64,000 bases of DNA from Prochlorococcus sp. AG-436-C05. Lineage in GTDB: Bacteria > Cyanobacteriota > Cyanobacteriia > PCC-6307 > Cyanobiaceae. Positions 62,196-63,111 of the stretch are shown one piece after another. A program made the position numbers and the translations under genes. The stretch spans positions 62,001 through 126,000 of the forward strand of contig QCPB01000001.1 of assembly GCA_003209795.1 (NCBI GenBank), written 5' to 3'. Position 1 is the first letter of the stretch. Each line of letters opens with the position of its first letter. The notes under the pieces were generated by a model that worked only from the letters and a program-made list of their open reading frames with translations, did no database searches and was not told the origin of the DNA.

Positions 62196-62275
62196 TTTAA
62201 ATACATTTAATTAGTTTCGACTTGAAATTATCATAGCTATAAATATAAAGCGGGCTAAAGTCTGTAAACATCACG

Positions 62276-62353
62276 ATGGAGAGGCGCTCTAGAAGAAGGA
62301 AAGTTGTATTGTCAGCAAGTGGAAAGCAAAGGATTAAATATGGAACGAATTAA
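62276..62353 (+). CDS. Candidate 25-aa Arg/Lys-rich peptide
   Basis: MERRSRRRKVVLSASGKQRIKYGTN*; locally higher GC than surroundings. Confidence 0.35.
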   Translation: MERRSRRRKVVLSASGKQRIKYGTN

Positions 62354-62433
62354 AAAAACTTATTATTTAATAATCATTCCTTGATAAAACAATAAAAAAA
62401 TCAAAGTTTAAGAAAAAATGTAGAGTTAATTAT

Positions 62434-62459
62434 GGTATTAAAAAAAATTTTTTAATACC
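62434..62459. repeat. 26-bp palindrome GGTATTAAAAAA-AA-TTTTTTAATACC
   Basis: 12-bp perfect arms, read directly. Confidence 0.9.
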
Positions 62460-62492
62460 CTAGTACAAATTAGTTTAAAAAGGATAGCCAAT

Positions 62493-62503
62493 AGTGTGAC
62501 ACT
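62493..62503. promoter_or_regulatory. Palindromic element AGTGTGACACT, copy 1 (candidate operator)
   Basis: Core of 17-bp palindrome AATAGTGT-G-ACACTATT overlapping the stop codon of the RHH-like gene. Confidence 0.6.
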
Positions 62504-62504
62504 A

Positions 62505-62870
62505 TTAATTTTTTATATTATCATTTTGATTCATAATTTTTTTAAACAACTTAAACTCAATAAATTCATGAATCATTTTTATATCATCTTTTAGAGATTT
62601 GTTGTTTATATTAGAAGAACCATAATTATTTAATATTTCATTATAAAATGATGATTTGTTATTTTTTGATGAATTATTTAAAATTTTTTCAATTAAAGAA
62701 GAATTCTTTGTAAAAGAAATATTTAAAAAGCCTCTAAACTTTAATGCTTCTTCAACTAATATTCCAGTTACTTTTGACTGACTATAATTATGGTCTTTTG
62801 ATATTTTTTCAATAATAAGATGAACCTCTTCACTAGGTAAGAACCCAATTCTTTTTCTATGAGAGGGCAT
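62505..62870 (-). CDS. Ribbon-helix-helix-like small DNA-binding protein (hypothetical)
   Basis: N-terminus RKRIGFLPSEEVHLIIEKISKDHNYSQSKVTGILVEEALKFRG has beta-alpha-alpha CopG/RHH spacing; variable Asn/Lys-rich C-terminus. Confidence 0.6.
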   Translation of the reverse strand: MPSHRKRIGFLPSEEVHLIIEKISKDHNYSQSKVTGILVEEALKFRGFLNISFTKNSSLIEKILNNSSKNNKSSFYNEILNNYGSSNINNKSLKDDIKMIHEFIEFKLFKKIMNQNDNIKN

Positions 62871-62885
62871 AACTCTAACTAAACT

Positions 62886-62896
62886 AGTGTAACACT
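62886..62896. promoter_or_regulatory. Palindromic element AGTGTAACACT, copy 2 (candidate operator)
   Basis: 16 bp upstream of the RHH-like start codon, adjacent to -10-like TATAAT (62907-62902, minus). Confidence 0.65.
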
Positions 62897-62907
62897 TGCA
62901 TATTATA

Positions 62908-62918
62908 AGTGTTGCACT
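62908..62918. promoter_or_regulatory. Palindromic element AGTGTTGCACT, copy 3 (candidate operator)
   Basis: 22 bp centre-to-centre from copy 2; the two sites bracket TATAAT. Confidence 0.65.
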
Positions 62919-62946
62919 ATATTATATTTAAGTCAACCAAATTCAC

Positions 62947-63111
62947 ATGCATTTTTTGATATTTCCTATAGGATTTATACTCTGGTATTTAGCTTATGAC
63001 ACGAAACCTCAAATTAATGATGAGGTAACTAATCTATGGGAACAAGAAAATATCAATAAGAGGGGTAAACTTCTAAATATTCTTAAAGAAAGTTACTATG
63101 CTTCTAAATAG
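62947..63111 (+). CDS. 54-aa membrane-anchored hypothetical protein
   Basis: MHFLIFPIGFILWYLAYDTKPQINDEVTNLWEQENINKRGKLLNILKESYYASK*; divergent from the RHH-like gene. Confidence 0.6.
   Translation: MHFLIFPIGFILWYLAYDTKPQINDEVTNLWEQENINKRGKLLNILKESYYASK

Follow-up and report, generated by a model that had tools for sequence, protein, structure and literature searches.

A family of ribbon–helix–helix (RHH) regulators in Prochlorococcus apparently forms a genuine, highly conserved and self-targeting circuit, in which a 121-aa protein probably represses its own gene, that of a paralogue and a divergently transcribed microprotein gene. Although Prochlorococcus has very few transcription factors, the family is present in all 87 near-complete genomes examined and its control DNA is strongly conserved. 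It is a compact example, open to direct testing, of regulators that are apparently aimed only at their own family and a microprotein neighbour; unusually, one operator also holds a fixed place at the 3′ end of the gene that it would regulate. Autoregulating RHH repressors are of a known kind; new here are the genus-wide set of three paralogues, the shared paired operator lying over two overlapping candidate promoters and the fixed 3′ operator. In a literature search, mostly outside subscription journals, neither the family nor its operator was found described.

The analysed DNA (the window) is a 64-kb stretch from Prochlorococcus sp. AG-436-C05. Among named relatives, single-cell genomes of Prochlorococcus and P. 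marinus MIT 9107 are the closest; judged by them, the window is of the high-light type. The features discussed below are as follows.

62505–62870, minus strand: RHH regulator gene, paralogue class A, 121 aa (open reading frame (ORF), 43-sequence alignment and structure models)
62730–62870, minus strand: predicted RHH DNA-binding core, codons 1–47 (helices 14–27 and 31–45; Foldseek matches to CopG, Arc and ORF56)
62514–62609, minus strand: conserved C-terminal helix, codons 88–119 (predicted helix 90–120; candidate oligomerisation segment)
62886–62896, no strand: proximal operator AGTGTAACACT (AGTGTNACAC(T) in 79/80 orthologous loci, 22 bp from the distal operator)
62908–62918, minus-strand form AGTGCAACACT: distal operator AGTGTTGCACT (exact in 79/80 class A and 50/50 class B loci)
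62490–62506, no strand: 3′-end operator in a 17-bp palindrome over the stop codon (GTGTNACAC in 80/81 orthologous loci)
62931–62936, minus strand: candidate −35 TTGACT of the RHH promoter (conservation of TTGACN-17-AACACT)
62908–62913, minus strand: candidate −10 AACACT of the RHH promoter, within the distal operator (conservation; analogous to TACACT of TrcR, PMC10272220)
62896–62901, plus strand: candidate −35 TTGCAT of the divergent promoter (conservation of TTGNNN-16-TATATT)
62918–62923, plus strand: TATATT, candidate −10 of the divergent promoter, which overlaps the distal operator at its end (conservation of TTGNNN-16-TATATT)
62947–63111, plus strand: divergent 54-aa gene with an N-terminal hydrophobic stretch (conserved start and length, pN/pS 0.29)

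Conserved operators at both ends of the regulator gene

The motif AGTGTNRCACT (for which AGTGT-NN-CACT is a shorthand denoting the same sites) occurs three times in the window, as AGTGTGACACT at 62493–62503, AGTGTAACACT at 62886–62896 and AGTGTTGCACT at 62908–62918, exactly where the preliminary description had placed it, and nowhere else in the 64 kb; 100 shuffles of the window gave a mean of 0.08 and a maximum of 2 occurrences. The two promoter-side operators are 22 bp apart from start to start, and the distal one is 1 bp short of a perfect palindrome, its form AGTGCAACACT being itself conserved. The first site lies, as described earlier, inside a 17-bp perfect palindrome (AATAGTGTGACACTATT, 62490–62506) that overlaps the stop codon of the RHH gene (62505–62507) by 2 bp, and a TATAAT is indeed present between the operator pair on the minus strand (62907–62902). 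Across the window's own assembly, AGTGTNNCACT is found in five places, namely the three window sites, C6:9339, which is upstream of a paralogous RHH gene, and C5:14108.

Both ends of this arrangement are conserved in orthologous loci. The promoter pair, AGTGCAACACT and AGTGTNACAC(T) separated by 11 bp, is kept in 79/80 class A loci with enough upstream sequence, and GTGTNACAC is found at the stop codon in 80/81, most commonly starting 3 bp past the stop, although the loci are related by descent and these counts are therefore not independent. The two exceptions, one in a promoter pair and one in a 3′ site, are single-base changes. In the alignment the 5′ conserved island reads GTTGACTTAAAT..AAATATAGTGCAACACTT-TAAT-TGCAAGTGTGACACT and the 3′ island reads TGTCACAC, with variable DNA beyond it. 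The 3′ site is exact even in two loci (L038 and L040) whose proteins are only 46–48% identical; exact 3′ sites appeared in 0.03–0.7% of shuffles per locus, and in <1% for these two.

Genome-wide, the motif is gene-specific rather than randomly distributed. Exact matches to the paired operator in 15 genomes fell solely at the promoters of paralogues A and B, the few remaining matches carried one mismatch each and were at the level of the reversed control (0–1 per genome), and single exact AGTGTNNCACT sites away from family loci were also at the reversed-control level; these searches used consensus patterns and would miss degenerate operators elsewhere. Within the family the operator takes the forms AGTGCAACACT, AGTGTNACACT, AGTGCTGAACT and AAGTGTTACAAT.

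Conservation points to promoters other than the one proposed at first. The preliminary description took TATAAT as the −10 box of the regulator, and conservation rejects it as the main one: it is present in 56/80 class A loci, absent among the eight commonest class B variants, where it is replaced, mostly by TATTAC, and located 23 bp from the conserved TTGACT. The pattern that never varies is TTGACN-17-AACACT, which points towards the regulator gene and is present in 80/80 loci of class A and 50/50 of class B. On the opposite strand, TTGNNN-16-TATATT reads into the divergent gene in 79/81 class A loci and has a class B counterpart, with TTGAC/TTAAC variants, in 45/50. We infer from these patterns a candidate promoter for each gene, and both candidate −10 elements touch the distal operator.

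The regulator, its paralogues and its divergent neighbour

The class A protein comprises an RHH core (residues 1–47), a variable linker (about 51–86) and a conserved C-terminal helix (about 88–119). With pN/pS values of 0.11 for residues 1–48, 0.75 for the linker and 0.17 for residues 88–119, it is, by this measure of selection, made of two constrained modules with a nearly free linker between them. The full-length structure model has a mean pLDDT of only 63.5, because of the disordered linker, with clear helices at 14–27, 31–45 and 90–120; residues 1–50 modelled alone reach a mean of 84. The best Foldseek matches of this core are CopG, Arc and ORF56, all of them RHH proteins (probability 0.82–0.94, TM-scores of 0.58–0.69), with E-values of >0.3, which are weak because the RHH domain is tiny. 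The monomer model contains both helices of the fold and lacks the ribbon strand. No curated RHH Pfam model matched above its cut-off; with the consensus of class A, RHH_5 reached E 0.04. When the single protein was scanned against Pfam, NCBIfam and PHROGs, no reliable family emerged, BART and YPO3983 matching below cut-off, and PDB sequence searches gave chance matches only. The protein is thus RHH by modelled structure, with Pfam support below threshold. The earlier RHH reading had been staked on the fold, on conservation of the element in orthologous loci and on its non-random distribution, and it survives on each count.

Contrary to the initial view of a single self-contained switch, the window gene belongs to a set of three paralogues, and one operator type is common to two of them. 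A family member is found in 245/267 congeneric genomes and in 87/87 of those that are at least 90% complete, usually as three copies; those of high-light-type genomes are A (the window gene), B and C. In the window's own genome, B is at C6:8928–9302 and C at C8:23760–24116. Class B carries the same distal operator as class A in 50/50 loci, and its proximal operator, in the modified form AGTGCTGAACT, again lies 22 bp from the distal one. A motif cluster, AGTGTTGCTAAGTGCTGTACT, is present at the 3′ end of class B genes (44/50 loci by a strict pattern). Class C has a single element, TTGACANAAGTGTTACAAT / TTGACAGAAGTGTTACAAT, at its own promoter in 18/18 loci and no 3′ motif; in 15 genomes this element occurs only at C promoters, save for one match with one mismatch. 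The ribbon residues K/R-R-I/V-G-F/Y-L/I-P are near-identical in A, B and C, which fits the AGTG half-site common to all three.

Beyond Prochlorococcus, another genus of its taxonomic family mostly has one copy, 6/59 genera have any, and a draw of 297 genomes from the phylum gave just two marginal matches outside the taxonomic family. Searches of phages and IMG/VR viral contigs found no relatives, so a phage origin is without support. In one locus from another genus of the same taxonomic family (L196), a distant relative, MAVSKRVQVLLRDRVAEIIEG..., starts at 1492 on the minus strand; it is without an AGTG operator and matches RHH_5 at E 0.0009.

Judged by its conservation, the divergent 54-aa ORF (62947–63111) is a real gene and corresponds to a conserved gene of about 50 aa that shares the operator region in orthologous loci. 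Its start is conserved and its length is 50–54 aa in 78/79 loci (50 aa in 75 and 54 aa in 3), and its pN/pS of 0.29 indicates purifying selection. The product, with a mean hydropathy of 1.97 over 15 residues of its N-terminal stretch, is probably a single-pass membrane protein. The divergent ORF of class B has 47–51 aa, a hydrophobic start and a pN/pS of 0.33. In the window's own genome this B partner is broken, having CTG where the start ATG should be and a premature stop (L048 ~1930–2070, contig C6); regulator B, by contrast, is intact together with its operators. In several other genomes the B partner is without the usual start, so the B circuit cannot depend on the microprotein everywhere. 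By eye, the A and B partners might have a common origin, but the similarity is not significant (hhalign probability 1.6%).

Relation to known RHH repressors

The demonstrated cyanobacterial RHH autorepressor is TrcR (all0854 of Anabaena PCC 7120 and its orthologues), which has its −10 box, TACACT, inside its own conserved operator, acts on several to many unlinked targets through a short 8-bp consensus and is reported to be missing from Prochlorococcus (PMC10272220). The Prochlorococcus family resembles it in being of RHH type, in having a conserved operator over its own promoter and in the candidate AACACT −10 within that operator. It differs in its paired palindromes, 3′ operator and three paralogues, whereas TrcR has a single operator, ATACTACACTTGTATTAC. 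Identity with TrcR was ruled out: a profile comparison with five TrcR-locus proteins gave an out-of-register alignment with an hhalign probability of 0.3%, and ATACTACACTTGTATTAC had no match in the window's genome with up to one mismatch allowed.

In the fold of its N-terminal core, the protein is like CopG of plasmid pMV158 and Arc of phage P22, small repressors that cooperate in binding to neighbouring symmetric DNA elements. CopG and Arc are plasmid and phage gene products of about 45–53 aa, without a linker or C-terminal helix, whose dimers sit about one turn apart, and to our knowledge neither has an operator at the 3′ end of its gene; the class A pair, by contrast, is two turns apart, and the regulator has a linker and a C-terminal helix, a 3′ operator and a genus-wide chromosomal distribution. 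Antitoxins of the RHH type that repress their own locus are common, and small hydrophobic peptides are frequent toxins. The predicted autorepression and the several operator copies recall such antitoxins (for example RelB), but there is no toxin gene in the operon of the regulator and its partner is divergent. With no adjoining gene on the same strand in the window and the next upstream gene divergent, the locus lacks the operon arrangement of type II toxin–antitoxin modules; it has the conserved symmetric operators over its own promoter that mark an autoregulated repressor.

A proposed self-targeting circuit and its alternatives

In the circuit that we propose, the 121-aa repressor would bind AGTG-type palindromes, and its targets would be essentially limited to its own family. 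Two dimers seated on the upstream operator pair, whose sites are two helical turns apart, would together cover two overlapping divergent promoters, with the distal operator housing the −10 of the regulator and occupying the spacer of the divergent promoter, and the proximal operator touching the divergent −35 and falling in the early transcribed region of the regulator. Because the operators would cover both promoters, binding would repress both the regulator and the divergent membrane-type protein of about 50 aa. As B has the layout and the distal operator of A, the two probably cross-repress. From the 3′ operator the protein could, by way of its conserved C-terminal helix, either form a bridge to the promoter sites, at a distance of about 393 bp, or halt transcription where the gene ends. 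Binding and reporter work could start at once from the operators, spacing and partner as now defined. A more elaborate scheme, which we regard as quite unlikely, would couple the A and B circuits through their common operator type, each looping about 0.4 kb from promoter to 3′ end by way of the C-terminal helix, with the divergent microprotein as a sensor or anti-repressor that releases the loop; if true, such a loop circuit would be a dedicated homeostatic or memory device in a genome stripped of most regulators.

That the operators are chance palindromes of AT-rich DNA is almost certainly wrong: the window shuffles, the genome control and the conservation down to about 46% protein identity refute it, and no point speaks in its favour. 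Toxin–antitoxin-like behaviour, with the RHH protein as repressor and antitoxin and the divergent membrane peptide as toxin, would agree with how common self-repressing RHH antitoxins and small hydrophobic toxins are, and with the retention of regulator and operators in genomes where the B partner is broken or without its start. We consider it very unlikely, however, as the two genes are divergent rather than co-transcribed, the family is in 87/87 genomes that are at least 90% complete whereas such modules are patchily spread, the divergent ORF is under purifying selection and no significant similarity links the partners of A and B (the 1.6% hhalign probability given above). A global, multi-target role, in which A and B would also use degenerate or single half-sites to act on unlinked genes, with the self-sites as just the strongest, has a precedent in the short 8-bp consensus and several unlinked targets of TrcR (PMC10272220) and is in line with the variation of the operators already seen within the family. 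It is unlikely, given that in 15 genomes exact single sites outside family loci stay at the reversed-control level and exact paired sites are absent elsewhere.

The self-targeting reading assigns the 3′ operator to the regulator gene itself, where it most likely belongs, since it is kept despite differing neighbours: tRNA-Met is about 300 bp from the site, on the opposite strand, in the window, and about 2 kb from it in most relatives. It is unlikely that the site serves another unit instead, through an antisense or downstream promoter. The site is an isolated conserved block amid poorly conserved DNA, and in L091, which is typical of the relatives, a small ORF on the same strand starts about 270 bp downstream, as such a role might predict; yet the neighbourhood differs in the window and the perfect 17-bp palindrome is retained, paralogue B, in another genomic context, also has 3′-end motifs, and no conserved promoter was seen around the 3′ site. 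The distance from promoter to 3′ site is 390–396 bp, with one case of 400, and is nearly constant because the gene length is constant; as for helical phasing of the 5′ and 3′ sites, other trial periods were similarly coherent. The data are compatible with looping through the C-terminal helix, a transcription roadblock or control of an antisense start, and we rank looping or a roadblock above control of an unseen antisense start.

The DNA between tRNA-Met and the RHH gene has features of its own. The region at 62232–62352 (plus strand), starting GCGGGCTAAAG, had no match in Rfam; at the corresponding place, relatives have a short conserved hairpin-like element, GCGGGCTAAGGTTCATATCTCCACGAGGATTTAGTCCGC. 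About 1.6 kb that separates the RHH gene from tRNA-Met in most relatives is missing here (62197–62489 compared with L091:3366–5900); in L091 it contains small ORFs, a thioredoxin-like ORF and, by eye, a ClpS-like ORF.
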